A stretch of 64,000 bases of DNA from Methanofollis sp. W23 (lineage in GTDB: Archaea; Halobacteriota; Methanomicrobia; Methanomicrobiales; Methanofollaceae): positions 1,178,001 to 1,242,000 of the forward strand of contig NZ_JAGGMN010000001.1 in NCBI RefSeq assembly GCF_017875325.1, read 5' to 3'. The notes under the pieces are model-generated. The model saw only the letters and a program-made list of their open reading frames with translations, was not told the DNA's origin and made no database searches. Below are positions 5,841 to 23,967 of the stretch, piece after piece; position 1 is the stretch's first letter, and every line of letters starts with the position of its first letter. Made by a program: the position numbers and the translations under genes.

Positions 5841-5859
5841 GTCATGAATTATATTTTAG

Positions 5860-7838: not shown

Positions 7839-8378
7839 ATGCACCGCAGACCCGCCGCCCTCCTCCTCGCCTTCGCCCTCGTCGCCATCACCCACGGCGC
7901 CGTCCTCGGGGAGGAAGTGACGCTCACCGGCACGGCCCCCGCAGGGGAGACCGTCTACCTCTTCTTCACCGGCCCAAACCTCCCGGCCGGAGGCGTCGAC
8001 CTCGTGCACCTCGACGCCGTCGCAACCGGCGAGCCTGAGACCTTCACCACCGTCACCGCCGGCGACGACGGCAGGTGGCGATACCGCTGGAAGACCGCCG
8101 GCCTCGGGATCGATCCAGGCACCTACACCGTCTACGCCTCTGACCGCCCGGCCGCGCACAACGACCTCGGGACAAGCGACGCGACCTACTCCACCCTTGC
8201 CGTCAGCCTCAGGCGTCCTGGCCTCGTCATCGACGGACCCGACGAGACACCCAAAGAGACCCCGACGACCCGGGTCGAAGAGACCGAGACCCCGGAGACC
8301 CCGGCCACCACCACGCCCTCACCAGGCCTTGCCGCGGCCGCCGCCCTCGCCCTTCTCATCGCGAAGCGCCGCCCCTGA
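7839..8378 (+). CDS. Secreted surface protein with Thr/Pro-rich stalk and C-terminal sorting-type tail
   Basis: A 179-residue protein with a signal peptide (MHRRPAALLLAFALVAITHG, cleavage near GEE), a beta-rich middle, a stalk rich in Thr/Pro/Glu (TPKETPTTRVEETETPETP), then PSPG, a hydrophobic stretch (LAAAAALALLIA) and a basic end KRRP. That tripartite tail resembles archaeosortase-processed PGF-CTERM-like signals and would anchor the protein at the cell surface; which sorting enzyme acts is inference. Its stop codon is directly adjacent to the stop of the convergent zinc protein gene. Confidence 0.7.
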   Translation: MHRRPAALLLAFALVAITHGAVLGEEVTLTGTAPAGETVYLFFTGPNLPAGGVDLVHLDAVATGEPETFTTVTAGDDGRWRYRWKTAGLGIDPGTYTVYASDRPAAHNDLGTSDATYSTLAVSLRRPGLVIDGPDETPKETPTTRVEETETPETPATTTPSPGLAAAAALALLIAKRRP

Positions 8379-8561
8379 TCAGTCGTACTTCCCCTTCACC
8401 CCGGCCCACCCGGTATACCCGCAATAAATACACCCGTCCCCCCCGCACTCCTCACACCGCCGGGCAGGCTTCCTGACCCGCACCTTCCCGGTCTTCTCGC
8501 AGTACATACAGCCCGCACCCTCGCAGTGGTTGCAGACCACCTCCTCGTATTCAATCTCCAT
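8379..8561 (-). CDS. Small zinc-binding protein with two tandem CxxC-x4-CxxC modules
   Basis: A 60-residue protein containing two copies of the same module: VCNHCEGAGCMYCEKTGKV and RCEECGGDGCIYCGYTG. Each has four cysteines in a C-x2-C-x4-C-x2-C layout with the glycine pattern of DnaJ-type zinc modules (CxxCxGxG). It most likely binds two zinc ions and may act in protein or nucleic-acid contacts. The ATG at 8561 is chosen because the protein upstream of it looks unstructured. The gene is convergent with and immediately abuts the secreted-protein gene. Confidence 0.7.
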   Translation of the reverse strand: MEIEYEEVVCNHCEGAGCMYCEKTGKVRVRKPARRCEECGGDGCIYCGYTGWAGVKGKYD

Positions 8562-8649
8562 ACCATTCTTTTGCCCCAGATGAGGCATTAACCCATCGAA
8601 AACCACCCCTCCAGACAAGACTTATCACGTTCCCTGCCCATCCTCCCGC

Positions 8650-9204
8650 ATGCGCGAACTCGGACGCCAGGCCGTCCACCTCATCTTCGGCCTCGGCATC
8701 GCCGCAGTCCTCCTCATCCCCATCCCCGGGCTTGCCCCCAAAATCTATGCCGCCTTCCTCATCGCCGGCCTCATCATCAGCGAAGCGATCCTCCACGGCC
8801 GCCACGTCCCCCTCTTCACCGCGATCGTCGAGGCCTTCGAACGCAAAGAGACCATCCCTGGAAAAGGCGCCGCATACTTCGTGGCCGCCGCCCTCTTCTC
8901 CTCGATCTTCTACGACCCCCCCACCGCCTTCATCGCCGTCCTCTCCCTTGCCGTCCTCGACTCGGTCGCCACCGTCGCCGGACTCACCTTCGGCCGCCAC
9001 CCACTCGTCAACGGCCGGACCCTCGAAGGCTCTGCCGGCGGGTTCCTCGCACTCGCCGCCGTCCTCCTCATCCTCCTCCCTCCCCTCGCCGCCCTCATCG
9101 CCGCAGCCACCGCCATGCTCGCCGAACTCCTCTCGCCAGTCGACGACAACCTCGTCATCCCCCCGGCCGTCGGGGCCGTCCTCACCGCCCTATCCTGGAC
9201 CTGA
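8650..9204 (+). CDS. Diacylglycerol/polyprenol kinase family membrane protein
   Basis: A 184-residue polytopic membrane protein (about six helices) with the features of the dolichol kinase / cytidylyltransferase-like superfamily: an N-terminal RQAVHLIFGL, a conserved KETIPGKGAAYF loop, LDSVATVAG, GRTLEGSAGGF and a C-terminal ELLSPVDDNLVIP motif. Members phosphorylate lipid alcohols, often with CTP. In archaea a role in recycling polyprenol carriers for glycosylation is plausible but inferred. A TATA-like CTTATCAC 26 bp before the ATG suggests a leaderless mRNA. Its last 23 bp overlap the convergent kinase gene. Confidence 0.78.
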   Translation: MRELGRQAVHLIFGLGIAAVLLIPIPGLAPKIYAAFLIAGLIISEAILHGRHVPLFTAIVEAFERKETIPGKGAAYFVAAALFSSIFYDPPTAFIAVLSLAVLDSVATVAGLTFGRHPLVNGRTLEGSAGGFLALAAVLLILLPPLAALIAAATAMLAELLSPVDDNLVIPPAVGAVLTALSWT

Positions 9205-12142
9205 ACAACCCCTCGGGCACCGCGATCTCGAAACACGCCCCCTCCCCCTCCCGACCAGTCTCGGCGATCGTCATCCCGGTGATATCCAGGATCTCCCTCA
9301 CCAGGAAGAGCCCGTACCCCGTATTCTTCCCAAACCCCGCCTCGAAGATCTGGGGCTTATGCTCGACCGGCACCCCTGCCCCATCGTCCTCGATGACCAG
9401 GACACCCCCCTCCTCGCTCTCCCTGAACGAGACCCTGATCTCCGAGACCTCGTTACCGTGCCGCACCGAATTTTCAAACAAATTAAAGACCGCCTTCTGG
9501 AGCATCGGGTCGGCAAAGACCTCCAGCGCCCCGGTCTCCACCGTGAGCGCGACCCCATTCACACCCAGGTCGCCGGCCGCCTGCCGCACCACCTCCTCCA
9601 GTCCCTGCCACTCAGGAGCCTTCACGCCCATATTCTCGTAGTCACGCGTGAACAGGATCTGCCGCTTGATCTTGTCGGTCAGGTCCATACATGAACTGAC
9701 CCGCCCGCTAAGGGCACGGTCCGCCCCGGCCGAGCGCCCGATGAGATACAGGTAACCCTGCAATGCCACGATCTGGTTGACGATATCATGCCGCGTCACC
9801 CCGTTGAGAATATTCAGTTTCTTATTCGCCTTCTTCAGCGCCTCCTCATACCCCCTGACCTCGGTGATATCCTGGTGGACCCCGGTCATCCTGAGCGCCC
9901 GGCCCTGCTCGTCCCTCTGCACTACCTTTCCCTGGCTCCGCACCCATGCCCATCGTCCATCTCCCCGCCTCATCCTGAACTCGACATGATAATACTGGAT
10001 CATCCCGTCAATATGCGCCCGCAAGGTCTCCTGGACACGAGGATAATCCTCAGGATGGATGAGATCGTCCCAGAGCCGATCACTTCTCTCCAGTTCGCCC
10101 TGGTCATACCGGAGCATCTGCTCATAGATCTGGTTGAAGAGCAACTCCCCTGAGGACGGGTTCCAGTCCCACACCCCCAGGTTGGCCCCTGAGATGACCA
10201 GGTTCATCGTCTCCTCGCTCTCCTTCAGCGCCCGCACCGCCTCGTTGCGCCTGGTGATGTCCCGCGAGATCGCCGAGAACCCGGTGACCGACCCGTCTTC
10301 ATCCCTCATCGGCGAGATCGTGATCGAGACCTCGACCTCCCTCCCGTCCTTTCTCCTCCGCCTGCTCTCGTAATGCTCGGTCGTCTCGCCCCTCCTGATC
10401 CGCCTGACGACCGCCATGAACTCGCTCTTCCGGTCCTCAGGGGCCAACATCGAGACATGACGGCCGATCATCTCGTCAGGGGCATACCCATAGATTGTCT
10501 CTGCCGCAGAGTTCCAGCTCGTGATCACGCCCTCCAGGTCAGTCCCAAAGATCGCGTCCTCTGAGGACTCGACGATGGCCGCAAGCCTGAGCCGTTCGGC
10601 CTCGGCCTTCTTCTCTGTGGTCACATCGCGGAAGACGAGCACTACCCCCACAATCCTGCCGTCCCGGTCCCTGATCGGGGCGGCACTGTCCGCGATCAAC
10701 CGCTCGCTCCCGTCTCGCGCGATGAGCGCGGTGTGGTTCACCAGACCCACCACCCGCCCGGTCTCGATCACCCGCGTCACCGGGTTCTCGGCCGTCCTGC
10801 GGGTTTTCTCGTTGATGATGACAAAGACCTCGTCGAGGGGATGGCCCAGCGCCTCTTTCTCGATCCACCCGGTCATCCCCTCGGCCACGGCATTGAGCAT
10901 CACCACCCGCCCCATCTCGTCGGTCACGACCACTCCGTCCCCGATCGAACGGAGAGTGACATTCAGACGCTCCTCGCTCTCCCTGAGTGCCTGCTCGGCC
11001 TGTCTCTGCCTGGTGACATCGCGCATGATACTCTGGGCGCCACAGATCCCCCCTTCCTTGTCAAAGACAGGACCGCCGTTCATCTCGAGGTCGGCACACT
11101 CGCCGTTCTTCTGCACCACCCGGACATGCAACCCCTCGAAGAACTCCCCTTCAAGCGTCCTCCTGAAATGCTCCTGGATCCTCTCAAGGTCTGGACCCCC
11201 GACAAAGGACGGGTATGACTCTCCGACCATCTCTTCAGGCGTGTATCCGATGATCCGCTCCATCGACGGGGATGCGAAGGTGATCGTCCCGTCCCTCTCT
11301 CCAATAGTGACGCCGTCATAGATCCCCTCGGCGATGACCCGGTATTTGGTCTCCGCCTCCATGAGGGCTTCTTGTGCCTTTTCTCTCTCAGAAATGTCGA
11401 CGGCGATCCCGTGAAGACCGACGAACTGGCCGTCCCCATCCCAGAGCGGCGTAAAAGTGAGGAGGACGGGGAACGCCTTTTCCCTGTCTCTTTGCCGCAG
11501 AACCCTGGTCTCATAATTGATCACTGGTTCACCGGTCCTGACCATCTCGCTCCCCCGCTCCCATGCCGCCTGCCGGTCGTCAGGGTGGAGATAGAGGTCC
11601 CACTTCTGGCCGATCACCTCCTCACGGCTCATCTCGAGTGCGGCAAGTCCGTACTTGTTGAGATAGGTGATCTCTCCCTCCCGGTCGGCCCTGAAGAGGA
11701 TGTTTGGGAGACTCTCCACCAACTCCCGGTAATTTTTCTCCGACTCCCGCAGCGCCCGTTCGGTCCACCTCCTGTTCACCGCCTGCCTGACCTTGTGGGC
11801 CAGTTCGGTGAACTGGGAGACTGGATCTCCCCCCTTCTGGAGATAAAAATCTGCACCACTGTTCAGAGCCTCGATCACCACCTCTTCCCGCCCCTTTCCA
11901 GTGAAGAGGATGAAAGGCATCCCTGGGAAAAGACGGCGGACCGCCTTGAGAAAGGCGATCCCGCTGGTCTGGGGCATCTCATAGTCCGAGACGATGGCAT
12001 CGTACCTGTGGGACCTGAGACAGGCCATCGCCTCTTCGGCCGACCCCGCCACGTCGACACAGAATCCCCCCTGGTCTTCAAGAAATTCCCTCCCCACCTC
12101 TAAAATCGCGGGTTCGTCGTCCACCAACAGCAGATGAATCAT
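9182..12142 (-). CDS. Hybrid two-component sensor: receiver domain, about five PAS domains, histidine kinase
   Basis: A 986-residue soluble signalling protein. Residues 1-120 form a receiver domain (LLVDDEP, phospho-acceptor Asp in IVSDYEMP, conserved Lys in LQKGG). About five PAS domains follow (roughly 133-255, 263-385, 390-505, 515-635, 640-770), with PAS S-box motifs such as FSAISRDITRR and WDLYLHPDDR. The transmitter has the phosphoacceptor motif TRHDIVNQ and an HATPase with N box NLFENSVRHG, G1 DDGAGVP and G2 GYGLFLVREIL. No membrane segment is seen, so the signal is probably cytosolic (redox or ligand). The C-terminal cassette closely matches that of the kinase at 33728-35047. No partner regulator lies nearby. 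Confidence 0.92.
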   Translation of the reverse strand: MIHLLLVDDEPAILEVGREFLEDQGGFCVDVAGSAEEAMACLRSHRYDAIVSDYEMPQTSGIAFLKAVRRLFPGMPFILFTGKGREEVVIEALNSGADFYLQKGGDPVSQFTELAHKVRQAVNRRWTERALRESEKNYRELVESLPNILFRADREGEITYLNKYGLAALEMSREEVIGQKWDLYLHPDDRQAAWERGSEMVRTGEPVINYETRVLRQRDREKAFPVLLTFTPLWDGDGQFVGLHGIAVDISEREKAQEALMEAETKYRVIAEGIYDGVTIGERDGTITFASPSMERIIGYTPEEMVGESYPSFVGGPDLERIQEHFRRTLEGEFFEGLHVRVVQKNGECADLEMNGGPVFDKEGGICGAQSIMRDVTRQRQAEQALRESEERLNVTLRSIGDGVVVTDEMGRVVMLNAVAEGMTGWIEKEALGHPLDEVFVIINEKTRRTAENPVTRVIETGRVVGLVNHTALIARDGSERLIADSAAPIRDRDGRIVGVVLVFRDVTTEKKAEAERLRLAAIVESSEDAIFGTDLEGVITSWNSAAETIYGYAPDEMIGRHVSMLAPEDRKSEFMAVVRRIRRGETTEHYESRRRRKDGREVEVSITISPMRDEDGSVTGFSAISRDITRRNEAVRALKESEETMNLVISGANLGVWDWNPSSGELLFNQIYEQMLRYDQGELERSDRLWDDLIHPEDYPRVQETLRAHIDGMIQYYHVEFRMRRGDGRWAWVRSQGKVVQRDEQGRALRMTGVHQDITEVRGYEEALKKANKKLNILNGVTRHDIVNQIVALQGYLYLIGRSAGADRALSGRVSSCMDLTDKIKRQILFTRDYENMGVKAPEWQGLEEVVRQAAGDLGVNGVALTVETGALEVFADPMLQKAVFNLFENSVRHGNEVSEIRVSFRESEEGGVLVIEDDGAGVPVEHKPQIFEAGFGKNTGYGLFLVREILDITGMTIAETGREGEGACFEIAVPEGLFRSRIGR

Positions 12143-12255
12143 ATTTCACCACCAACTCAGCAGGATTCTAATCGACCATTCGATCGACGATATATATTAT
12201 TTATTCCATATGTCGTCGCCAGGAAAATCTCTTGACAAAGAAAAGAATAAAAATG

Positions 12256-12487
12256 GGCTCTGTAGAAACCCTCTGGATGCCTCTCTCTGGCGGGGGGCGT
12301 GCCGCCCCCCGAACCCCCTCGAATATGATCGCTCGGGGCCCTGAGCACCCTCTTCAGGAACGTCGAATATGCCTCCCTGTCCTGATCTCCGCCCAGGGGA
12401 TCAGGGGGCAACCCCCCGGGCAAGAGACTATGGGAAGGCAATCCAATCGCCCTCACACCAAGAATGAGCGAGGAGTCCCACAGGGCC
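12256..12487 (+). mobile_element. Family A MITE-like element, full 232-bp copy
   Basis: It starts GGCTCTGTAGAAA and ends GGAGTCCCACAGGGCC, a decayed right end. It includes both GC hairpins, the first being GGGGGGCGTGCCGCCCCCC. No target duplication is recognisable (flanks TAAAAATG and GACTTTTT). It lies in the divergent spacer between the hybrid kinase and the DUF1624 gene. Confidence 0.75.
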
Positions 12488-12556
12488 GACTTTTTCTCTT
12501 CTATGCGGCGTGAAAAGAGTCATCACCTCTTGGGGTGTATAGTTCTCACTCCAGAT

Positions 12557-13348
12557 ATGCCGCACCCGCACCAGACCCGGGTCCAGGACCTCGTGACCGG
12601 AATCTTCTCCACCCATAGCGCGGGCCGCAGGTTCCTGGAGATCGACCTCCTGCGCGGGGTGGCGATCCTGATGATGGTCCTCTACCACTTCCTCTTCGAC
12701 CTCTCCTTCTTCGGGATCGCCGACGTCGAGGTGCACACCGGCGTCTGGAAATCCTTTGCCCTTGCCACGGCCTCGCTCTTCATCGCCCTTGCCGGGCTCT
12801 CGCTTCCCATCAGTTATGCAAGAAGAAAAGACAGGCTTTCAGGGCAGGCACTCTGGGCCGACTATGCACGACGTGGCGGGAAGATCTTCCTGTACGGTCT
12901 CCTCGTCACCCTCGCCACCTGGCTCTACCTCGGCGACGGGTTCGTGGTCTTCGGGATCCTCCACCTCATCGGATTTGCCATCATCGTCGCCCCTTTCTTT
13001 CTCAGGTTCGGACTCTGGAACTTCCTTATCGGAGCGACGGTCGTCCTCGCCTCCGTCCCTCTCGCCGGGGTCAACGGTCCGTACTGGCTCCTCTGGCTCG
13101 GGGTCCACCCGGCCTCCTTCTACAGCGTCGACTATGTCCCGGTCATCCCCTGGCTCGGTGTCGCCCTCATCGGGATGGCGATCGGGTTCTGGCTGTACCC
13201 TGACGGGAAGAGGCGGTTTGGTGTCCCTGAGGTGCACCACTGGTGGGCGGACCTCCTCTCGCTTTTTGGCAGGAACTCGCTCTTCATCTATCTCGTCCAC
13301 CAGCCCGTGATCGTGGGAGTGATGATGGCCCTTGGACTGGTGGCGTGA
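12557..13348 (+). CDS. DUF1624 / heparan-alpha-glucosaminide acetyltransferase-like membrane protein
   Basis: A 263-residue integral membrane protein with about seven helices. The beginning FLEIDLLRGVAILMMVLYHFLFDLSFFG is the classic R-G-x-A-I-x-M-x-x-x-H-x-x-F-D signature of DUF1624/HGSNAT-like proteins, with the conserved His in helix 1 thought to take part in acyl transfer across the membrane. The end SLFIYLVHQPVIVGVMMALG also fits. The substrate in archaea is unknown; surface glycan acetylation is an inference. The ATG at 12557 is preferred over an upstream in-frame ATG at 12464, which would start inside the family A element. Confidence 0.82.
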   Translation: MPHPHQTRVQDLVTGIFSTHSAGRRFLEIDLLRGVAILMMVLYHFLFDLSFFGIADVEVHTGVWKSFALATASLFIALAGLSLPISYARRKDRLSGQALWADYARRGGKIFLYGLLVTLATWLYLGDGFVVFGILHLIGFAIIVAPFFLRFGLWNFLIGATVVLASVPLAGVNGPYWLLWLGVHPASFYSVDYVPVIPWLGVALIGMAIGFWLYPDGKRRFGVPEVHHWWADLLSLFGRNSLFIYLVHQPVIVGVMMALGLVA

Positions 13349-13365
13349 GGAGAAGGAGGCGAGAA

Positions 13366-13424
13366 GATGGGGAAGGCGGTTGAATCGTACTTGAACCAAA
13401 AAAAGTGAGGATTTCTACAGGGCC
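13366..13424 (-). repeat. Family A right-end fragment
   Basis: The block GATGGGGAAGGCGGTTGAAT followed by GTGAGGATTTCTACAGGGCC is the outer arm of family A without its partner end, just after the DUF1624 stop codon. Confidence 0.55.
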
Positions 13425-13445
13425 AAAATAAGGGGGCTTTCCCTC

Positions 13446-13877
13446 TCACGCGGACCTGACGCACCGGCCGTGCTGGAAACCGCACCGCTCGAACCCTGCG
13501 GCAATCCCGCTCTCATCGAGGGCGGCCTGCAATTCGGTCCTGAACTCCTGCATCGTCTCGAATGCCGTCTCGCAGTCTCCGTGCTCACGAGCCTCCTGCG
13601 CAGTCTTGAGGAGAGCGGTCAGCGCCGAGGTGTCGTACCCGCTCTCATCGAGAGCGCCGAGCACCGGGGCCGCAGGGTATGCGCCGTGGTTGCCCGCACC
13701 AAACCCGTGCCCGCCGAATCTGTTCTCCTCGCATACAACGCCCGGCGCCCCTCCCCGGGCATAATGCATGCCAGGGGCGTCGCCGGATCCTCCGCCGAAG
13801 AATGCGCTCGCCGGCATGGCGAAGAACGCACAGACGCAGCAGAGGCATATGATTCCGATGATGCCGATCTTTCTCAT
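13446..13877 (-). CDS. Small secreted protein, unknown function
   Basis: A 143-residue protein with a signal peptide (MRKIGIIGIICLCCVCAFFA, then MPASA). A Gly/His-rich segment (GGGSGDAPGMHYARGG, GGHGFGAGNHG) is followed by a helical C-terminal half (YDTSALTALLKTAQEAREHG...MQEFRTELQAALDESG). Two cysteines flank a His near the end (CGFQHGRC). The layout recalls small periplasmic metal-handling proteins, but I do not recognise the family. A perfect 8-bp dyad at 13969 lies ~90 bp upstream and may be its operator. Confidence 0.65.
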   Translation of the reverse strand: MRKIGIIGIICLCCVCAFFAMPASAFFGGGSGDAPGMHYARGGAPGVVCEENRFGGHGFGAGNHGAYPAAPVLGALDESGYDTSALTALLKTAQEAREHGDCETAFETMQEFRTELQAALDESGIAAGFERCGFQHGRCVRSA

Positions 13878-13968
13878 GTTTTTCCTCTGGATATTCGGTG
13901 CCGGAAGGCACCCTGATCACCACTCGGCAGGTGTGGATAAATATTCCCGAAATACCCGGAGTGCAACG

Positions 13969-13988
13969 GTTGAACCGGTTGGTTCAAC
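13969..13988. promoter_or_regulatory. Perfect inverted repeat upstream of the secreted-protein gene
   Basis: GTTGAACC - GGTT - GGTTCAAC is an exact 8-bp dyad in the upstream region of the gene starting at 13877. It could be an operator or an RNA stem; no oligo-T follows on either strand, so a terminator is less likely. Confidence 0.4.
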
Positions 13989-13998
13989 GATATGATTT

Positions 13999-14575
13999 GT
14001 AGAATTTTTCATGAGGCGAGAGCACGCCTCAAGCATACGGGATGAAAATTCCTCGTCGCTTGATCGCTCTTTTTCAAGAGAGGAGAATCGATGGAGATCA
14101 TGTTCCATTAGCCGCCCCACCAATCTTCGGTCCGTGGGGGGTCCGGGGGGTAAAACCCCCCGGCGCGAGACAGCGGTGAAGATTCGACGATTTGGGGCGG
14201 CCGATCAGATCGACGTGCCTTCCCACACCCTTGCACCGGGGGCGCTGCCCCCGAACCCCGGGGATGAAGATAGGATCGGGAAGGCAGAGGACCGATCACG
14301 CTGAGGAACTTTCTATCCTCTGCGTATCGGCTTCAACGAGATATGGCGAGTTCAAACTCTCATACAAACCTGAAGAGAGGATCGTCAGGATCATTTTCAT
14401 AGTAATTTTTCATGAGGGGAAAGCACGCCTCAGACATGCCGAATGAAAATTCTATTTGGTCTCCGGCGTGTGGATCCTTGCTCCCTCTTCGGAGCAAGAC
14501 ACCAGATGAAACCACCACTTCATTGCCGCCCCCGCATATCCTCTCTCCGTGGGAGTGGCACGTCGGATCATCACG
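13999..14575 (+). repeat. Family B mosaic repeat, one near-complete and one truncated copy
   Basis: The first copy (13999-14406) starts TGTAGAATTTTTCATGAG, has a GAGGCG/CGCCTC hairpin, two GC hairpins (near 14141 and 14242) and the typical end GATCGTCAGGATCATTTTCA. A second copy begins immediately (about 14406) with the same hairpin and breaks off at about 14575. No gene lies in 13878-14611. Confidence 0.7.
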
Positions 14576-14611
14576 CTTTCACTTCAGGATCGATCCACAA
14601 CATCCAACAGT

Positions 14612-16255
14612 TCACCCCTTCTCCTCGACCTCGTCGAGGGCGTCGAGGAGTTCAGCGGCCGTGTGATACCGCCGCTCAGGATCCTTTGCCAGACACCTCC
14701 CGACGACCCGGTCCCATCCGGCAAGGGAGGGATCCATCACCGAAGGCGGCGGCGGGTCGGCGGTGAGGATCGCCATACTCACCTCGCCGATCCCCTCACC
14801 CGTGAACGGACGCCTGCCGGTGAGGAGTTCATACAGCACCACCCCAAACTGGAAGATGTCGGTCTCTCTCCCGAGGGGCCCGAACTTTGAGGGCGAAACC
14901 TGTTCTGGGGCTGCATAGTCCAGGGAGAAGGCGATCACCCCGGTTATCCCGGTATCAGCCATCTCCTTACTCAGACCCCAGTCGGTGATCTTTGGAACCC
15001 CTCCTGGTGCAAGAAGGATATTTGCCGGTTTGATATCCCGGTGGATCACCCCCCTCTCGTGGGCATATGCCAGGCCCGCAGCGACTCCCTGTGCGATCTT
15101 TACGGCCTCCGCCGGGCTCACCGGTTTCTCGATCTCCTGGAGCGACCGCTCCACATACTCCATCTCGACAAAGGGGACGGGAAGGATGTTGAGGGCGTAC
15201 AACTTCACGATATTCCGGTGGTCAAGCCCCTCCCAGATCCGCATCTCCTTGAGGAAGTAGCGCCCAGTCAGTTCGTCTGTCCCCAGGGGGATCTTGACCG
15301 CGACGACCTCGCCGTCGGTACGGCGGACCGCACGGAACACCTTCGCGTTCCCACCCCTGCCGATGTAGATCACGTCGGTGTACCGGCCCGCAAGCCCAGC
15401 GGGAAAACCCGAGGACGGAGCAGCGGTGGCCACCGCCTCGTCGTCCCCGACGATCGTCAGGGGCCCCTCGTCACCGCCGCCGGTGATGGTCATAGGCCCT
15501 CGTTCCGCAACGGTGAGACTCCGCATCTGGAGAACCGGAAGGAGTGCGGACGCAACGAGCACCAGGACCAGAAGGAGATCACCGCCCGACCCGCGGAAGA
15601 GCGGCATGATTCCGATCAGACCGACCAGGAGGAGGCCCAGCGCCGGAAACGGATGGGCCCTGAGAAGATAGACCGTCGGGACACGCCTGAACGAAGCATA
15701 CGCCAGGGCGAAGGAGGAAAAGGCAAGGTAGACAAGGCAGATACCCATGATGGCGACTGCCAGATCAGGCGCTCGCCCTCCACCGGTGACCGGGCCTGTC
15801 GCCACTACACTGAATGACGAAAGGGCGCCGATAGCGGAGACGGCGGAGAAAGATCCGAGAATACCGTACGCTACTGTGAAGAGGGCGCAAGCCCATCCGG
15901 GGAAGGCGTATCGGTAGCCACGAGACGGATCCCTCCCGAGGACAAAAAGCACGGCGACAACCAGGATGGAGAGACCGCCGCTCACGAGTGCGGTGAAGAA
16001 GGCCATCACCGTCGCGGTCATGGCGGCCTGATGTGCCGCCGGATGGATCGCGCTCCTCGCCGCCTGGAAGCCGGGTTCGTCCCCGGTGGCATTGCCCCCC
16101 CGCCAGGAATGTTGCATCTCCTGGAAATCCGGATGCGGCCCTTCGACCGGGATCATCACCTCAGTCGCTCCCATAACCGAGGCGACCACTCCGACGAGGA
16201 AAAAAAGAAGAAAACACCAGAGGGAGAGGGGCTCGGGGGATTGCATGCATGTCAC
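14612..16255 (-). CDS. Membrane Ser/Thr protein kinase (Hanks type)
   Basis: A 547-residue protein. Residues 1-245 hold an N-terminal hydrophobic segment (11-30), an extracytoplasmic loop with an HPDFQEMQHSW stretch (41-51), and further membrane helices (about 78-106, 119-155, 167-190 and 204-240). The kinase domain spans about 291-545: glycine loop IGRGGNAKVF, Lys321 in VAVKIP, Glu337, catalytic HRDIKPAN with Asp407, and DWG (Asp425) in place of DFG, a substitution that still keeps the metal-binding Asp. AAPEQ near 450 marks the end of the activation segment. It sits 79 bp downstream of the FHA/winged-helix gene on the same strand, which suggests that FHA protein is its phospho-Thr-reading partner. 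Confidence 0.92.
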   Translation of the reverse strand: MTCMQSPEPLSLWCFLLFFLVGVVASVMGATEVMIPVEGPHPDFQEMQHSWRGGNATGDEPGFQAARSAIHPAAHQAAMTATVMAFFTALVSGGLSILVVAVLFVLGRDPSRGYRYAFPGWACALFTVAYGILGSFSAVSAIGALSSFSVVATGPVTGGGRAPDLAVAIMGICLVYLAFSSFALAYASFRRVPTVYLLRAHPFPALGLLLVGLIGIMPLFRGSGGDLLLVLVLVASALLPVLQMRSLTVAERGPMTITGGGDEGPLTIVGDDEAVATAAPSSGFPAGLAGRYTDVIYIGRGGNAKVFRAVRRTDGEVVAVKIPLGTDELTGRYFLKEMRIWEGLDHRNIVKLYALNILPVPFVEMEYVERSLQEIEKPVSPAEAVKIAQGVAAGLAYAHERGVIHRDIKPANILLAPGGVPKITDWGLSKEMADTGITGVIAFSLDYAAPEQVSPSKFGPLGRETDIFQFGVVLYELLTGRRPFTGEGIGEVSMAILTADPPPPSVMDPSLAGWDRVVGRCLAKDPERRYHTAAELLDALDEVEEKG

Positions 16256-16334
16256 CGGAGAGGGGAGGTATTTTGACCTGAAAAAAATATGGGGAGACGA
16301 GGGTATGAAACCGACGGAAGGTGACCCCGCCGCC

Positions 16335-17117
16335 TCAGGCCCCTGGCAGGGTGACGACGAGACGGGCGCCCTTCATGCCCTTCCCGAGACCGATGAGGTC
16401 TCCGTCACTGAGGGCGACCCTCTCTCTCCCTTCAAGCGGCACACTGTTGAGCACCGTCCCACCGGTGCTCCCGCAGTCCTCCAGGTACCAGACACCCTCC
16501 TCCAGCGACAAGAGGGCGTGCGGGTGCGTGACCCTGGTCACCGCGGCGTAGTGTTCGGCGAGGACGATGTCGACCACCCGGTCGTATCCGCCCTCCCCGC
16601 CCGGATCCTCGCGACCGACAGCAACCCGCTCCCCATGGAGGGGGAAGACCTTCCCGTCGTCAGGCCCGCCAAGGAGCATCAGCACCGGCACGGCCGTTGC
16701 GAGTTCCTCAGAGACCTGCCCCTGCACCGCGGCAATCCGTTCTGAAAGCGCAGCGTCGGCGGGCATGAGTCCGACATTGCCGAAGAGACTGAGGCTCCTG
16801 ACAATCCCTTCCATCCCGCCCGGGACCACCGAATACTTCCAGACCGGGTGCACCCCTTTTGCCGTCGGCCTGCTCATCCCGGCCTCTTTCCTGACCACCC
16901 CGATCCTGAGCAGTCTGTCGAGGTGTTTTTTGGTGTTCTCATAACTCGTCTCGATCTCGCGCGAGATCTCCCTGACATCCTTGGGTCGCCGCTCGATCGC
17001 CTTCAGGATTCTCAGGCGCGTCCCGCTCCCGAGCACGTCAAGATACTCGGAAAGTTCGGCGAGGAAGTCCTCGTCGCGCTCGACGAGAAGTGTATGGGTT
17101 CCTTCATCCCCCTTCAT
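16335..17117 (-). CDS. Winged-helix DNA-binding protein with C-terminal FHA domain
   Basis: A 260-residue protein. Residues ~25-95 form an ArsR-like winged helix (LGSGTRLRILKAIERRPKDVREISREI, recognition helix SYENTKKHLDRLLRIG). A linker follows, then an FHA domain (~150-255) with VAVGREDPG, VTHPHALLSL, DCGSTGGTVLN and LSDGDLIGLG, matching the GR, SxxH and GSxNG elements that bind phosphothreonine, although the last reads GSTGG. It probably reads phosphorylation set by the adjacent kinase and changes transcription accordingly (inference from fusion and neighbourhood). First gene of the pair. Confidence 0.9.
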   Translation of the reverse strand: MKGDEGTHTLLVERDEDFLAELSEYLDVLGSGTRLRILKAIERRPKDVREISREIETSYENTKKHLDRLLRIGVVRKEAGMSRPTAKGVHPVWKYSVVPGGMEGIVRSLSLFGNVGLMPADAALSERIAAVQGQVSEELATAVPVLMLLGGPDDGKVFPLHGERVAVGREDPGGEGGYDRVVDIVLAEHYAAVTRVTHPHALLSLEEGVWYLEDCGSTGGTVLNSVPLEGRERVALSDGDLIGLGKGMKGARLVVTLPGA

Positions 17118-17500
17118 CGTCTATCATATCCCTTCATGCACCCAGAGGGTATGAACCCGTCGCCGCTCTGTGGGGGACGTGCCCCCCGCCGACCCTACGC
17201 ACGAAGATAGACACTGGACTGCGTTTTCCTCTTCATGCCTGTTGAGGGTGCCTTTCCGGCTCAATCTTCCACCCGGAGGGTCCAGGGACAGAGACCGATC
17301 ATTCAGAAGAGTCGATCAGTCTCCCAAGAACGTAGAGTCTGCCTTCTTTCTCCACCCTCTTCTCGTGGGGGAACAAGCGTCAGCAAGTCCGAGATTGGGG
17401 AAGGGTTTCGCCGTGTCAGTGAGGACGATCTTGAGATACGCCGTCCTTTTCTCTATCAAGGTAAGGGGATAGGAGGAAATAATCAGGACCGCGATGACCT

Positions 17501-18137
17501 GAAGTCCACTCAGACAGATCAATGAGTTTTCGGCCCTGTAGAGACCCATAAAGATCGGTCAGGGTGGCTTCTGATCACATGGCTTCCCGCCTCGGTCACG
17601 CCAGGGGGTGCATCCCCCGACCCCCACCACACGATTTTGGTCGAGGACGCCAACCTCTTTCGTCGTGGTCGTCGATTCTGCCTTCCGTGCTCGATCTTGC
17701 TTTCGGAGGTCCGGGGGCACTCGTCCCCCGGCGCGAGCATTGAGGAAGGCAGTTGAGTCACAATTGCACCTAGAAGAGGGGAGGGTTTCTACACAGCGGG
17801 ACGATCTTTAAGTTTCGATGAATTAGTGGGGACAGCGACACTTGAAGTCCACACAGACAGATCAATGAGTTTTCGACTCTGTAGAGAACCTTACAGATCT
17901 GTCAGAGTGGCCTTCTGATCATATGCCTTCCCGCCTCGGTCGCGCCGGGGGGTGCACCCCGGACCCCTGCCCCACGATGGGTCGAGGACGGGGCAATCCC
18001 TCTTCAGGGAGTACGAATATGCCTTCCCAGCTCAATCTTCATCCTGGGGGTCCGGGGGCAGCGCCCCCGGTGAGATGATGGGGAAAGGAGGTTGAGTCAC
18101 GCGCACATCAGGAATAGGTGAGGGTTTCTCCAGAGCC
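17501..18137. repeat. Direct duplication of a family A element with a shared leader (~300 bp each)
   Basis: Two copies, 17501-17800 and 17844-18137, each begin GAAGTCCACxCAGACAGATC then AATGAGTTTTCG, enter family A at (G)G/ACxCTGTAGAGA (17532 and 17875), and end at GAGGGTTTCTACACAGC or GAGGGTTTCTCCAGAGCC. The shared leader outside family A shows a segmental duplication and not two independent insertions. The preceding part of the spacer (17118-17500) contains a GC-hairpin repeat fragment and no gene. Confidence 0.75.
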
Positions 18138-18157
18138 AAAACATCGGAGGCCCCAGG

Positions 18158-19006
18158 TCACACCAGGGGCTCGGGCCCCCGCGGCCCCGCGACCGGGAGC
18201 GTCCCGCCGGTGACCACCACCTGCCGGTCGGTCTCCCTGATCTTATCCAGGACGATCTCCTTGCCCCTCTGCGTGAGGGCGAAGACCGGGACCGCAGTCC
18301 CGGCCTGGAGGAGGGCCCGCCGCCCGGCAGCCTCGCGGAGGTGCCGCGAGGCGCAGACCGCCACGATGTCCGCCACCGCCGCCATCTGCTCGGCCTCATC
18401 GACCGACAGACCGGTGAGGTGCACCCCCACGATGAGGACATCGGGATAGCGCCTCCTCACCTCGACGGCGACCGCGGGGGAGGCGACCGTCACCGCCACC
18501 GCCTGGTGCCCGGCCTGCACCGCCGCCTCGACCCCGGAGACCGGATCGATCCGCGCCGTGGCCGGGTCGAGCACGGTCCCGCCGTTCTCCTCGATCCGCC
18601 TGATCACCGCAGGGATGGGCGAGGTCTTCACGAGCCCAGACATCCGCCCGCCGATCCCCTGGACCAGCCGCGGATTTCTGGCGAGCACCGTCCCGGCGCC
18701 GTCGCAGGCGATGACCGCAGCGTCGAGATCGCCGCGCCGCACCGCCGCGCTCATCAACTCCGAGGCCCCGAAGAGGACGAAGTCGGGGTCGGCAAGCACC
18801 TCGCGCGCCGGCGTGCACATCCCAAAACCGCGGATCCGCGCCTCGATGTTCTTCTTGATCTCCTCTCTCGTCATCTCCCGGACCGGGGACGAGAAACGTT
18901 CCGCGAGCGGGCACGACCTGATCACGGGCTCGCCCACCTCGACGACCTTCCCGTCCCTCACCACGACCCGCGTCTTCCCGGCGGCCTCGATGATATGCTC
19001 GTCCAT
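18158..19006 (-). CDS. Methanogenesis marker protein 8 (DUF2099)
   Basis: A 282-residue soluble protein matching the DUF2099 / methanogenesis marker 8 family, which is confined to methanogens and relatives and whose exact function is unknown. Recognisable stretches are VVVRDGKVVEVGEP, CPLAERF, FGMCTPARE, FVLFGASELMSAAV, IPAVIRRIEENGGTVLDP and VCASRHLREAAG. The conserved cysteines (CPLAERF, GMCTP, VCASRH) could bind metal. The ATG follows the adenine deaminase TAG with no gap, so the two are translationally coupled; there is no metabolic reason known to me for that pairing. Confidence 0.85.
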   Translation of the reverse strand: MDEHIIEAAGKTRVVVRDGKVVEVGEPVIRSCPLAERFSSPVREMTREEIKKNIEARIRGFGMCTPAREVLADPDFVLFGASELMSAAVRRGDLDAAVIACDGAGTVLARNPRLVQGIGGRMSGLVKTSPIPAVIRRIEENGGTVLDPATARIDPVSGVEAAVQAGHQAVAVTVASPAVAVEVRRRYPDVLIVGVHLTGLSVDEAEQMAAVADIVAVCASRHLREAAGRRALLQAGTAVPVFALTQRGKEIVLDKIRETDRQVVVTGGTLPVAGPRGPEPLV

Positions 19007-20668
19007 CTACTCATCCTCACAGAAGAGGGGGACGTCGGCAAATGCCGCCGCATCAAAGACCCCGCGGTCGGTCACCCGCAGGTGCGGGATCACAGTGAGG
19101 GCAAGGAACGAGAGGTACATGAACGGATTCCTGACCGCCCCCATCGCCCCGGCCTCCTCCTTGAGGGCCGAAAGAATCTCGCAGACCTCGGAGTAGGGCT
19201 CGGTCGCCATCAACCCCCCGCACGGGAGCGGGAGGGCCGTCACCCGTTCGCCTCGCACCGCGACCACCGCGCCCTGGTGGGCGATCACTTCCCTGATCGC
19301 CAGGCAGATCTCCTCGTCAGAGACCCCGACAGCGATGATGTTGTGGGTGTCGTGGGAGACGCTCGCGGCGATCGCTCCCTCTTTCATCCCAAAACCATGG
19401 ACCAGGCCGACCCCGCACCCCCCGTGCCGGTAGCGGTCGCAGACCACCACCTTGAGGACGTCCTGCTCAAAGTCGGGGACCGCAGTCACCCTCATCCGCA
19501 GGTCGTCGGTGACGACCTGCCCTTTGTTGAGCCCGATGACCCTGGCAACGCCCTCGCCCTCGATCCTGAGGTCCTCGTCGGGGGCGGGCGGGCGGCACCT
19601 GAAGACCGGCGGTGGGGAGACCGGCGCCTGGTAGCCAGGGTCTTGGTAACGTGCACCCCGCACATAGGTCGCCGCCACCTCGAACTCTGCCGAACTCTTG
19701 AGCACGCAGAAGTCAGCCCGTCGGCCAGGGGCGATCGCACCCCGGTCGGTCAGCCCGAAACGCTGGGCAGAGGAGAGGGTCGCCGCCCTGAGCGCTACCT
19801 CCAGAGACACCCCGCACCCCACCAGTTTCCTGATGCAGTCATCGATATGCCCCTCAGAGACGAGCATATCGGCATGCCGGTCGTCGGTCGCCAGACAACA
19901 ACGCGACGAAGTGCAGGGTGTGAGCAGCGGGGCAAGGGCTCTGATGTTCCTCTCGGTCGAGCCCTCTCTGATCATGATGTACATCCCGAGACGGAGTTTC
20001 TCTTCTGCCTCTTCAAGCGAAGTAGACTCGTGGTCGCTCTGTATCCCGGCGAACACGTAGGCGTTGAGATCCTTTCCTGAGAGGAGTGGGGCATGACCGT
20101 CCCTGACCTGCATGAGCCCGAGTTTTTTCCAGACCTCGGGGTCGCCGTTCAGGACGCCAGGGACATTCATCATCTCGCCCAGGCCCACCACATCCTCTCT
20201 CCCGACAAACTCCGCAAGGTCTTCAGCCGTGAGCACCGCCCCGCCCTCGTCATGGGGTGTGGCAGGGACACATGAGGGAAGAGTGACCTTGACCGAGAGG
20301 GGGGAGCGCGCACCCTCTGCAAGGATGAACTCGATCCCCTCCGTGCCTGAGACATTGGCGATCTCGTGTGGGTCGGCGACGACCGTCGTCGTCCCGCGCG
20401 GGAGGACCACCCGTGCGTACTCGCCAGGCGAGAGCATCGAACTCTCGATATGCGCATGGGCATCGATGAGTCCAGGGACGACCTTCGCGCCCTTGAGGTC
20501 GACGGTCTCCAGCCCTTCGTAGCCCTCGCCCATCCCGACGACCGTCCCGTCCTTCACTGCAAAAGAGGTCTCCTCCCAGGAACAGGTGAAGGGGTTGTAC
20601 AGAGAGAGATGGGTGAAGACCTGGCCTGCGGTCACCCTCCCGCGTGCGGCATCCATGTATGCGTCCAT
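19007..20668 (-). CDS. ade: Adenine deaminase
   Basis: Converts adenine to hypoxanthine and ammonia in purine salvage. About 553 residues, the usual length. The amidohydrolase metal motif is GLIDAHAHIESSM; further family motifs are VVADPHEIANVSG, CVPATPHDEGG, ATDDRHADML, HDTHNIIAVG and PCGGLMATEP. The ATG at 20668 is preferred to the in-frame GTG at 20674 because AGGTG lies 5-6 nt before it. The start overlaps the end of the upstream lipoprotein gene, and marker 8 follows immediately, so the three probably form one operon. Confidence 0.95.
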   Translation of the reverse strand: MDAYMDAARGRVTAGQVFTHLSLYNPFTCSWEETSFAVKDGTVVGMGEGYEGLETVDLKGAKVVPGLIDAHAHIESSMLSPGEYARVVLPRGTTTVVADPHEIANVSGTEGIEFILAEGARSPLSVKVTLPSCVPATPHDEGGAVLTAEDLAEFVGREDVVGLGEMMNVPGVLNGDPEVWKKLGLMQVRDGHAPLLSGKDLNAYVFAGIQSDHESTSLEEAEEKLRLGMYIMIREGSTERNIRALAPLLTPCTSSRCCLATDDRHADMLVSEGHIDDCIRKLVGCGVSLEVALRAATLSSAQRFGLTDRGAIAPGRRADFCVLKSSAEFEVAATYVRGARYQDPGYQAPVSPPPVFRCRPPAPDEDLRIEGEGVARVIGLNKGQVVTDDLRMRVTAVPDFEQDVLKVVVCDRYRHGGCGVGLVHGFGMKEGAIAASVSHDTHNIIAVGVSDEEICLAIREVIAHQGAVVAVRGERVTALPLPCGGLMATEPYSEVCEILSALKEEAGAMGAVRNPFMYLSFLALTVIPHLRVTDRGVFDAAAFADVPLFCEDE

Positions 20669-20670
20669 GC

Positions 20671-21033
20671 TCACACCTGGATATCCCTGATCACTGCGGC
20701 CGTCCGTTCATCCCCTTCTAGGAGATAGAGATAGAGTTTATAGGAACCAGGTTCAAGGGCCACAGGATAGGAGAAGGTATTGGTGCCGTCCTGTAAATCT
20801 ACACTCCTGACGATGGTCTCGACCTCTTCCTGTTCAAAGGTGCTGGTCCTGGAAATGGTCACCTGGAAGGTAGCCTCCAGCGGTCCTGACGGGTTGTCCA
20901 CCTTGACCTGGAGAGCGCCATCTGCATAGTCCACCTCTCCAAATCCGGTGCCAGTACATCCTGCGGTCAGCGCGAGGATGCAGAGGCAGGGGAGCCAGAT
21001 CAGAGGTGCAGTCCGGGGAATTGCTGCCATCAT
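20671..21033 (-). CDS. Small lipoprotein
   Basis: A 120-residue protein with an N-terminal hydrophobic segment ending in the lipobox LTAGC (Cys26), then a ~95-residue beta-rich domain (VKVDNPSGPLEATFQVTIS ... EPGSYKLYLYLLEGDERTA) resembling an Ig-like/FxLYD-type fold. It is probably anchored to the outer face of the membrane. An ACTATATC box ~26 bp before the first ATG indicates a leaderless transcript and excludes the longer upstream frame. Adenine deaminase follows with overlap. Confidence 0.75.
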   Translation of the reverse strand: MMAAIPRTAPLIWLPCLCILALTAGCTGTGFGEVDYADGALQVKVDNPSGPLEATFQVTISRTSTFEQEEVETIVRSVDLQDGTNTFSYPVALEPGSYKLYLYLLEGDERTAAVIRDIQV

Positions 21034-21166
21034 CAGAATGTGACCGCTGGGAGAAGATATAGTATTGGTTTCCAGTTCCCGGCGGTCGAACTGGAATAAA
21101 AAGAGGGGGTGAAAGGGGACCGATTGAACGGAGAACTCTGGCACCGATGAATGGTATTGAAATGGG

Positions 21167-21670
21167 TTATGCGGGATTGCACCCCTCGACAATCCCGCTG
21201 ACAAAGGAGACAAGGGCTTCATGGACATTTTCCCCGGTCCGTGCCGAGATGAGATGGACCGAGGCGTCACCGACCGCCTCGGCATAGAGCGACGGCCTTG
21301 ACTCGGGGAGGTCACATTTGTTGAGCATGAAGACGACCGGGAGACCGGTCTCTTTCAACCATGAATATAATTGTCTTGTCATCTGATCTGGCGCAATGGT
21401 CGAGTCCGCCACGATGATCGCTCCGTCCATTCCCCTGGAGAGGATCTTCCTGGCAAATTCAAACCTGTCCTGACCGGGCGTTCCGAAGAGGAAGACCTGC
21501 TGCTCTCCCACCCGCACCCTCCCAAAGTCGAGGGCGATGGTCGTCGCCTCGCCGTCGCAGTCTGCCTCGATGTGTCTTGCAGAGGGATCGAGGGCAGTGA
21601 TGAGAGAGGACTTCCCTGCATTGAAGGTGCCAAATATGCAGAGTTTGAGTTTCTCGCGTGCCATCACCAT
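21167..21670 (-). CDS. Small Ras-like GTPase
   Basis: A 167-residue single G domain: P-loop GTFNAGKSS (11-20), switch II FGTPGQDRFEFAR, NKCD for guanine specificity, and SARTGENV as G5. The threonine of G2 is in GEATTIALDFG. It belongs with archaeal/bacterial MglA/Rab-like small GTPases that act as molecular switches; partners are unknown. A TATA-like AGATATGAA about 29 bp upstream of the start suggests a leaderless mRNA. The lipoprotein gene follows 133 bp downstream with its own promoter. Confidence 0.88.
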   Translation of the reverse strand: MVMAREKLKLCIFGTFNAGKSSLITALDPSARHIEADCDGEATTIALDFGRVRVGEQQVFLFGTPGQDRFEFARKILSRGMDGAIIVADSTIAPDQMTRQLYSWLKETGLPVVFMLNKCDLPESRPSLYAEAVGDASVHLISARTGENVHEALVSFVSGIVEGCNPA

Positions 21671-21816
21671 GTGGTGCGACGCAGGTTCATATCTACTTTT
21701 CGAAACTCACTTCTGCGTAATTTACTTATTTTATAGAAAAATTGGGAGTATTTGTCTCTGAAAATGTGTTGCCCCACCCATCAGCAGGGCAAAATACGAT
21801 CCCCGTCTTCACCAAT

Positions 21817-22014
21817 TTAGATCTTCTCGACCGTGATCCGTACGCGGTCGCCCGCCTTGAGGCCATGGGCCTTCGGGATATCGATATTGAACCAGAGTTG
21901 TTCAGGGTCCTGTTCGCCCCCACTTTCAGGGCCCTGCTGCATAATACAGTCCTTGAACTCGTTGATCCTGGCAACAAACTCGATCTCAGACTCGAAAGAG
22001 ACAATCGGTTCCAT
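21817..22014 (-). CDS. 65-residue protein with AbrB/MazE-like C-terminal strand pattern
   Basis: A small protein (MEPIVSFESEIEFVARINEF...QLWFNIDIPKAHGLKAGDRVRITVEKI). The final half, with a strand, a hydrophobic patch and GLKAGDRVRITVEK, resembles swapped-hairpin AbrB or MazE-type subunits, which bind DNA or act as antitoxins. No toxin-like gene is adjacent, so an antitoxin role is not supported. AGGT precedes the ATG closely, and a TATA-like TATACTATAAC lies just upstream. It follows the HTH gene by 29 bp. Confidence 0.6.
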   Translation of the reverse strand: MEPIVSFESEIEFVARINEFKDCIMQQGPESGGEQDPEQLWFNIDIPKAHGLKAGDRVRITVEKI

Positions 22015-22043
22015 ACCTAAAAATTGTAGTTATAGTATATGTA

Positions 22044-22295
22044 TCATGCCGCCCTGGGGCTGACCATCCAGGTGGTCGAGTTTGAATAGCTCCAGCGTGT
22101 GATCTCGAGTTCCTCGCAGATCTCAGAGAGGATCGCGAGGTTTGTACCGACCTCTTTTGCTGAAAGTCCGAGGTCATGGGCGATGTATTTTGACTTGAAG
22201 TAGTGCTTCCCTCTTCTCAGACCGCCTATTAAATATTGGACAATCCGGCTCTGTGTATCATTATAATTTTCTCGGAGACTTTTATGTTTGACCAT
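22044..22295 (-). CDS. Small winged-helix protein (DUF7123-like)
   Basis: An 83-residue protein with a helix-turn-helix core: DTQSRIVQYLIGGLRRGKHY, FKSKYIAHDLGLSAKEVG, TNLAILSEICEELEITRWSY, ending SNSTTWMV. It resembles haloarchaeal DUF7123 proteins (from memory), presumed DNA-binding regulators. The ATG at 22295 is chosen because GAGGT lies 6 nt upstream and because the TATATATA at 22334-22341 would start transcription near 22312, inside any longer frame beginning at 22325. Confidence 0.7.
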   Translation of the reverse strand: MVKHKSLRENYNDTQSRIVQYLIGGLRRGKHYFKSKYIAHDLGLSAKEVGTNLAILSEICEELEITRWSYSNSTTWMVSPRAA

Positions 22296-22333
22296 CTCGA
22301 TACCTCGACTTGTTAGTCCTATCATCAGTTGTT

Positions 22334-22341
22334 TATATATA
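22334..22341 (-). promoter_or_regulatory. TATA box of the small HTH gene
   Basis: AGATATATATAAAC is a strong archaeal TATA element ~43 bp before the chosen ATG at 22295, leaving a short leader that carries GAGGT. Confidence 0.6.
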
Positions 22342-22425
22342 TCTTACGTTTTCTATCCATTTTATCCCAGGAATTCCGAATTTGGGTCCGCTAAACCCGT
22401 TGGCTTAAAATAAAATGAGAAGTGT

Positions 22426-23445
22426 TTATTTTCTGGCCAGTACGAGGATTCCAAGTGAAAGCGCGGCAAGAGCAGGGATCAATGACAACGGGGTCTGCGT
22501 AGGTGCCGTCGTTGGAGCTTCTGTTGTCGTCTCCGGAACCGGCGTCGTCTGGACCGTGGTTTCAGTGACCGTCTCTGCCGGTACCGGCGTGGTTGCAGTC
22601 GGCGCCGGGGTCTCGGTGACACTCGGGGTCTCGGTGACCGTCTCTGTCGGCACGGTCATATTGACGCCGATCCTGTTACCCGAGTCAAAGGTGACGACAT
22701 TTGAGTCCTCAGCATAGTCGGCAAAGCCCTGGGGTGCACTCCACCGTGCCTGGACTTTATACTCCCCTTCTTCGAGTCTGTCAAGCACGATCGGTCCAGA
22801 TACCCCTGGGTCGTCGGTATAGATGACCGAAGCGGTGAGCGGAATATCTGAGAGATCCTGCCCCTTGAAGTACGTCACTTCGGCCCCGCTCGGTGACGTG
22901 ACCACGAGATCGACCATGGCATATTCATCACCGGCATGATACTCGGTGCCCACATAGTGACCGACCACCTTGAAGGCGATCGCAGTCCCTGCCGGGATGG
23001 TGATCCCCTCGATCCTGTCGGCATGGTTGGGGGCGGCAAGGACAGGTTCGATCCTGACTTCAGGGTACCGGATCATGATCCTGTCCCCAGTCCGTCCATT
23101 GTCTCCCCTGCTGTAGGCATAGTATGTCCCGGTCTCGTCCTCATCTATATCGACATCGATGAGGCTGACAGAGGAGTCGTCAGGGACCGAGATCCGGTTC
23201 TGCTCGCCCTTCTCGACATCGCCGTCTTCGTACCTGACCAACGCCGTGACCGGATTGTTGGTCGTCTCATTTCTCAGGGCAGAGAGATTGAGCCCTTCTT
23301 CATAGACAAAGACCGTGTCTCCAGGTTCGATCTGGGATATCGTATCTCCTCGTGCGGCGGCCGGCGACATGACAACCAGGCCCAGCAGGAGGAGACCGCA
23401 TAGTATCCCGAACAGGGAGGCCCGGGAATAGATATTTCGTACCAT
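22426..23445 (-). CDS. DUF3821 surface protein with sorting-type C-terminus
   Basis: A 339-residue exported protein. Signal peptide (SLFGILCGLLLLGLVVMSPAA), then a DUF3821 domain recognisable by QIEPGDTVFVYEEGLNLSAL, YYAYSRGDN and a second beta domain (VVTSPSGAEVTYFKGQDLSDIP...EEGEYKVQARW). Next is a ~65-residue Thr/Pro-rich stalk with tandem TETP/TVTETP units (about 273-317), a hydrophobic segment (LSLIPALAALSLGILVL) and a basic tail ARK. DUF3821 is known to me mainly from Methanomicrobiales; its function is unknown, probably cell envelope. The tail would be an archaeosortase-type or plain membrane anchor. Confidence 0.85.
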   Translation of the reverse strand: MVRNIYSRASLFGILCGLLLLGLVVMSPAAARGDTISQIEPGDTVFVYEEGLNLSALRNETTNNPVTALVRYEDGDVEKGEQNRISVPDDSSVSLIDVDIDEDETGTYYAYSRGDNGRTGDRIMIRYPEVRIEPVLAAPNHADRIEGITIPAGTAIAFKVVGHYVGTEYHAGDEYAMVDLVVTSPSGAEVTYFKGQDLSDIPLTASVIYTDDPGVSGPIVLDRLEEGEYKVQARWSAPQGFADYAEDSNVVTFDSGNRIGVNMTVPTETVTETPSVTETPAPTATTPVPAETVTETTVQTTPVPETTTEAPTTAPTQTPLSLIPALAALSLGILVLARK

Positions 23446-23914: not shown

Positions 23915-23967
23915 AAAATTTCAGGAAGGAAGCGCTTCAGGTCAGGAGAATGTCCATACTTCAATTC

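Follow-up and report, generated by a model that had tools for sequence, protein, structure and literature searches.

A conserved pair of a membrane Ser/Thr kinase and a winged-helix/FHA regulator in Methanomicrobiales, with a candidate phospho-acceptor threonine in the regulator tail

Does a membrane-bound Ser/Thr kinase of a methanogenic archaeon signal to a DNA-binding protein encoded beside it? The question is raised by two minus-strand genes in a 64,000-nucleotide stretch of the genome of Methanofollis sp. W23 (hereafter the window, whose numbering we use unless another contig or locus is named). A sequence-only reading of this DNA had placed a regulator gene at 16335–17117 and a kinase gene at 14612–16255, both on the minus strand, and had proposed a signalling route from one product to the other. 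Both reading frames stand where it put them: the regulator has 260 amino acids and an ATG start, and the kinase gene (547 amino acids, GTG start) lies 79 bp downstream on the same strand, across an intergenic gap at 16256–16334. In our judgement, the Ser/Thr kinase signalling of euryarchaea has been little mapped. A 2023 paper describes archaeal FHA proteins as conserved in Crenarchaeota only (PMC10470591).

The upstream gene does join an ArsR-type winged helix to an FHA domain, as had been read from the sequence. Pfam places HTH_5 at residues 33–77 (E = 2.6e-7) and FHA (PF00498) at residues 168–245 (E = 5.5e-11), and an AlphaFold2 model (pLDDT 83.5, pTM 0.54) divides the protein into a winged-helix domain at residues 16–97 (16827–17072, minus strand), with the recognition helix at about residues 58–66, two helices at 101–114 and 119–139, and an FHA domain at 145–256 (16350–16685, minus strand). 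The top structural match was the FHA domain of DgcB (Z = 16.6, rmsd 1.3 Å over 98 residues), in a look-up whose rows cover almost only the FHA domain of the regulator.

The downstream product has a Pfam Pkinase domain at residues 295–536 (E = 9e-42) with the Lys, Glu, HRD, DFG-type and APE-type motifs of a Hanks-type Ser/Thr kinase, among them the Lys321, HRD (H405-R406-D407) and DWG (D425-W426-G427) motifs that had been picked out earlier. Across the 70 paired kinases described below, K321, E337, D407, D425, G427, P450 and E451 are each present in 70/70 and R406 in 61/70. The DWG form, with Trp in place of the Phe of DFG at residues 425–427, occurs in 70/70. Hydropathy indicates six N-terminal transmembrane segments ahead of the cytoplasmic kinase domain, in agreement with the AlphaFold2 model (pLDDT 82.4), which consists of long N-terminal helices, a low-confidence linker and the kinase domain; a Foldseek search with the whole model returned PknB-type kinases first, the best match being PknB of M. 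tuberculosis (E = 6.6e-17). The layout is receptor-like throughout the paired kinases, with hydrophobic segments N-terminal in 70/70 and C-terminal in 0/70 by hydropathy. Their lengths range from 379 to 867 amino acids and the outside part varies: among 40 scanned kinases, 11 matched NosD, 10 a right-handed beta-helix model and 3 PEGA, while the domain scan found no named sensor domain in the window kinase.

To judge how constant the pairing is, we examined 76 loci, comprising 74 stretches chosen by hand from the listed matches with a preference for good assemblies (and so a non-random sample), the second locus of the Methanofollis genome, and window positions 8001–26000. These hold 77 FHA genes, 73 of which encode a winged helix. 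The FHA-only genes in L133, L137, L138 and L141, excluded from the 73, encode proteins of 184–189 amino acids without a winged helix; the same loci hold large kinase genes, and these proteins form a separate FHA class found in one genus.

A same-strand kinase gene lies directly downstream in 70 of the 73 regulators, with a gap measure of −168 to +488 (median 16) that falls within 200 bp in 68 of the 70 pairs. The three exceptions are L090, where the contig ends, L124, whose neighbouring kinase gene runs on the other strand, and L112, whose first regulator copy has no adjoining kinase. L112 carries tandem regulator copies (5616–6416 and 9551–10354 of that locus) with a PP2C-like gene between them, and its second copy has a shortened tail. 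The side-by-side but opposite-strand order of L124 (G181) recurs at G159:C63 as a variant arrangement. In a replication on 80 named loci, many of them from genomes already in the hand-picked sample, an adjacent kinase was found for 63 of 81 regulators; 11 others end less than 2 kb from the locus edge, leaving 7 without one. Of these 7, two have about 6 kb available (L155, which resembles the tandem case of L112, and L215), and the other 5 have 2.0–2.9 kb, where a kinase frame running off the end of the locus would go unlisted. The association also holds at the level of genomes: of the 152 genomes in which FHA is matched, 149 also have a Pkinase match at E ≤ 1e-20, versus 15 of the 80 in which it is not (Fisher 7e-39, computed on typed counts that had been read by eye from the match tables).

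The two partners also appear to share their history. Pairwise distances between regulators correlate with those between kinase domains (r = 0.81, 70 pairs), and none of 2000 randomizations that swapped partners within genomes reached the observed value; when the test was confined to the 17 genomes that hold more than one pair (36 pairs), 1 swap in 5000 did. Since swapping partners within a genome breaks the correlation, regulators and kinases seem to be passed on jointly, as cognate sets. The Methanofollis genome (2.9 Mb) itself holds two pairs: FHA matches and strong kinase matches number two each, and a further kinase match is weak and falls below the cut-off. Its second FHA gene (C1:1935671–1936459) also encodes a winged-helix/FHA protein, 55% identical to the window regulator, and is followed after about 15 bp on the same strand by the second kinase gene (1934315–1935655), whose 446-amino-acid product has two hydrophobic segments with a Pro/Thr-rich stretch in between.

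The earlier reading had looked to conservation of the pair across methanogens; we find it conserved across the order Methanomicrobiales rather than in methanogens at large. Of 232 Methanomicrobiales genomes, 152 have an FHA match, and a whole-regulator profile (A1, built from 58 sequences) found full-length regulators in 154 of the 232, spread over 33 of 40 genera; a class-level search covered the identical set of 232 genomes. Within this set, the genomes of genus g9 are listed without a regulator. Beyond the order, in a phylum sample of 392 genomes, the fused winged-helix/FHA protein was not found, and matches were limited to about residues 3–91, the winged-helix part, with E no better than 1e-10, so the fusion looks specific to Methanomicrobiales. 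Among the best 80 of 144 relatives listed, all titles name Methanomicrobiales members or unclassified Euryarchaeota apart from that of L187, where a clear relative of the regulator lies on a contig labelled as a Thermoplasmata archaeon, possibly a misnamed bin.

Order-wide conservation, near-constant adjacency and cognate co-inheritance together support a route from a membrane kinase to a DNA-binding FHA protein, in which we infer both the phosphorylation step and the binding to DNA from the sequences.

If the kinase does act on the regulator, the likely phospho-site is a threonine in the N-terminal tail, Thr9 (codon at 17091–17093, minus strand), a more specific target than the N-terminal region suggested before. 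Thr9 is present in 72 of the 73 aligned regulators, the remaining one having a gap (the second copy of L112), while the rest of the tail ahead of the winged helix varies. It is found in 30 of 31 representatives at less than 60% identity, among which the entropy at position 9 is 0.21 bits, compared with 3.21 at position 8, 1.96 at position 10 and about 2 to 3.7 at neighbouring positions generally. After adding the named loci and removing duplicates, Thr9 is present in 137 of 139 distinct proteins, both misses being gaps, and it is never replaced by Ser. All four threonine codons are in use (ACC 28, ACA 20, ACG 16, ACT 8), which points to selection on the amino acid. The +3 residue is Leu, Val, Ile or Met in 108 of the 137 proteins. 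In this genus, winged-helix matches that lack an FHA domain begin to align no earlier than residue 17, so Thr9 appears to be proper to the FHA-bearing family and not to the winged helix. The tail is predicted to be disordered (pLDDT below 50 for residues 1–11), and docking of Thr9 is not seen in the AlphaFold2 model of the regulator, in which pTM is 0.54 and the tail is disordered. FHA domains read phosphothreonine and not phosphoserine; a residue that is always Thr and never Ser, in a tail predicted to be disordered, is what a phosphothreonine-reading FHA domain would need. Thr9 could also be conserved for some other reason.

The FHA pocket itself is unusual. The earlier reading had made its proposal depend on the pocket residues Arg, Ser and Asn being present, with a warning that the window regulator reads GSTGG in place of GSxNG. 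Arg and Ser/Thr are there in 73 of 73 regulators; the Asn mostly is not, and the warning turns out to be well placed and to apply to the whole family. At position 219, which we take to be the equivalent of Asn107 of Rad53 (our own assignment), 66 of 73 regulators have Gly, 6 have Ser and 1 has Asn. The pocket, which in the window regulator comprises R169, T197, H198, H200, S217, T218 and G219, is otherwise largely kept: Arg169, His200 and Ser217 are each present in 73/73, as is Asn224, residue 197 is always Ser or Thr (62 + 11), and residue 218 is Thr in 63 and Ser in 5. Such a uniform change from Asn to Gly in an otherwise retained pocket looks like modification rather than decay. In DgcB this Asn (N97) makes contact with the bound peptide (PMC6733907); with Gly in its place, classical phosphothreonine-peptide binding may be weak or altered, and the lost contact could be compensated by tethering the tail in cis.

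The reading we favour, with a probability of roughly 60%, is that the two proteins form a sensor-kinase/regulator pair that acts like a two-component system on Ser/Thr chemistry. The kinase would sense a signal through its membrane or outside part, the region that varies between pairs, and once active would phosphorylate Thr9 in the flexible tail of the regulator encoded just upstream. The phosphorylated Thr9 would then be captured by the regulator's own FHA domain, either in cis or between the two subunits of a dimer, much as the N-terminal tail phosphothreonines of Bdellovibrio DgcB and of GarA/OdhI are bound by the FHA domains of the same proteins (PMC6733907, PMC8546545). Since the tail leads straight into the winged helix at its first helix, capture would be expected to move or mask the DNA-binding domain and so switch transcription. 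A phosphatase would reset the switch, and in some relatives a PP2C gene does lie directly upstream of the pair.

These PP2C-like genes are on the same strand as the regulator at a distance of −91 to +116 bp, in L095, L099, L100, L103, L110 and L144, and the one in L099 is PP2C_2 by Pfam. PP2C_2 matches occur in 170 of the 232 genomes of the order; a search of this Methanofollis genome found none, and its one SpoIIE-type phosphatase match lies elsewhere than the pair. Genes for an ABC ATPase and a MacB/FtsX permease end 22–72 bp before the regulator in seven loci (L072, L074–L077, L090 and L096). In L072, where the permease is MacB/FtsX by Pfam, the block also includes an exported CARDB-like protein; neither the window nor L073 has a match to its three proteins, although genes on the flanks of the block are matched there at 88–94%, so the block is absent beside the pair in the window genome and in L073. 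The flanking DUF2099 gene remains in both (window region 17118–18157). Clustering of neighbours gave no gene family other than the kinase and the regulator that is common to most loci, with PP2C and MacB-type transporters in subsets only; the large opposite-strand clusters look like frames inside the regulator and kinase genes.

The same observations can be read in other ways. The FHA domain might instead dock on the kinase in the manner of EmbR and PknH, binding an autophosphorylated threonine in the activation loop or the juxtamembrane region and recruiting the regulator to the membrane, with phosphorylation falling elsewhere and Thr9 being one acceptor or a docking element. The activation loop does carry hydroxyl residues, at position 438 (Thr in 39 and Ser in 21 of 70 kinases) and at position 444 (Ser in 64, Thr in 6), but the loop residue is often Ser, which FHA domains disfavour, whereas Thr9 is Thr in all 137 proteins that have it. 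Docking alone would also leave a near-invariant threonine in an otherwise variable regulator tail unexplained. We consider this arrangement rather unlikely, though it has precedents: phosphorylation of EmbR by PknH needs the FHA domain of EmbR (PMC4601284), and GarA/OdhI is recruited through a phosphothreonine of PknG (PMC8546545).

The family-wide replacement of Asn by Gly in 66 of 73 regulators would also fit an FHA domain that has given up phosphothreonine binding and now serves as a dimerisation or protein-binding surface, with the kinase acting on the DNA-binding domain directly or on other proteins; the title of a paper on GarA speaks of phospho-independent FHA interfaces. One would not expect an inactive pocket to retain Arg169 and His200 in every regulator, a Ser or Thr at 197 without exception and a Thr or Ser at 218 in 68 of 73, nor would such a pocket account for the strictness of Thr9, and we regard the loss of binding as improbable. 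Finally, the biochemical link between the partners is a prediction, and the two genes might be adjacent without direct signalling, held together by chance or operon inertia. That the pairing is kept at 70 of 73 loci across the order, that partner swaps break the distance correlation and that this genome holds two paralogous copies make such an explanation scarcely credible.

What the regulator would bind is suggested by the winged helix. The recognition-helix segment (residues 58–66) has the lowest variability of the segments measured, with a mean entropy among the 31 representatives of 0.5 bits, where the FHA domain has 1.92 and tail residues 1–8 have 3.24, and its near-invariance even between paralogues suggests that different pairs may read one common DNA site. 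Upstream of 46 representatives, expectation maximization yielded a GC-rich motif that scored above block shuffles; we rejected it, since much of the searched stretch is probably coding sequence of the upstream genes, and for this reason we claim no operator. On the minus strand of the window, TTCATACCCT has exactly two exact copies, one upstream of each gene of the pair: at 16301–16309, inside the intergenic gap, and at 17147–17155. Exact or near copies occur in the closest relatives, L072 and L073, and none is shown in loci L074–L077.

More speculatively, Methanomicrobiales may have evolved a Ser/Thr counterpart of two-component systems, in which interchangeable sensors (beta-helix/NosD-like, PEGA or multi-transmembrane) would drive cognate kinases towards a tail threonine and a modified FHA pocket, with Gly for Asn, would capture that tail. 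Several sensors might even converge on a shared operator, given how little the recognition helix varies between paralogues. We put this generalization forward tentatively, as a possibility.

Of the Methanomicrobiales genomes searched, two in three carry an FHA regulator that has its own membrane kinase and a candidate phospho-site. Beyond the proposal of a kinase acting on an FHA protein, the analysis shows that the pairing is nearly one to one and that paralogous pairs exist, names a testable candidate phospho-site in the tail, and describes how the FHA pocket is altered and how far the regulator has spread. We found no description of the pair in the open-licence literature searched (CC0, CC BY and CC BY-SA papers), which is not a claim of its absence from print. 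If the favoured reading is true, this would be a second case of a kinase acting on an FHA transcription factor besides PknH–EmbR, and it would offer a compact way into the question of how the surroundings are sensed by these methanogens.

Set beside known systems, the pair resembles two-component systems in having one sensor with variable input and one cognate DNA-binding regulator, encoded by adjacent genes, with paralogous pairs kept together. It differs in chemistry: two-component systems use a histidine kinase and a receiver Asp, whereas here there is a Hanks-type kinase and a Thr/FHA arrangement, and Pfam finds no histidine kinase or receiver domain in either protein. With GarA/OdhI and DgcB the regulator has in common a conserved Thr in a disordered N-terminal tail and a hydrophobic +3 residue, which is Val in DgcB (PMC6733907); in those proteins the output is a metabolic inhibitor or a diguanylate cyclase, in contrast to a DNA-binding domain here, and the pocket Asn of DgcB, N97, is Gly in this regulator. 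In the Sulfolobales, ArnA/ArnB with the kinases ArnC/ArnD provide an archaeal FHA protein that acts on transcription under Ser/Thr kinases (PMC10470591, PMC12852372), and the pocket of ArnA consists of Arg134, Ser148 and Asn170 (PMC10470591). ArnA has a Zn-ribbon before its FHA domain, whereas the regulator described here has a winged helix instead and has lost the pocket Asn.

PknH is a membrane kinase, and the mycobacterial PknH–EmbR system is like the present pair, by architecture and gene adjacency here, in combining a membrane Ser/Thr kinase with a winged-helix/FHA regulator. EmbR, the partner of PknH, is a transcription factor whose winged helix is N-terminal and whose FHA domain is C-terminal (PMC4601284), and the regulator's FHA domain aligns with that of EmbR (2fez) both by profile (E = 2.6e-5) and by structure (Z = 15.1 over 97 residues). 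However, EmbR combines an OmpR/SARP-type DNA-binding domain with a bacterial transcriptional activation domain, whereas the regulator has an ArsR-type winged helix followed by two helices; Pfam detected no such activation domain up to E = 1, and residues 101–143 are modelled by AlphaFold2 as two helices only. The regulator also has Gly for the FHA Asn and one near-invariant tail Thr, while the passages on EmbR available to us from PMC4601284 name no single conserved tail site. The pair is therefore a variant of the kinase-to-FHA-regulator kind known from PknH–EmbR, and not a member of that family.
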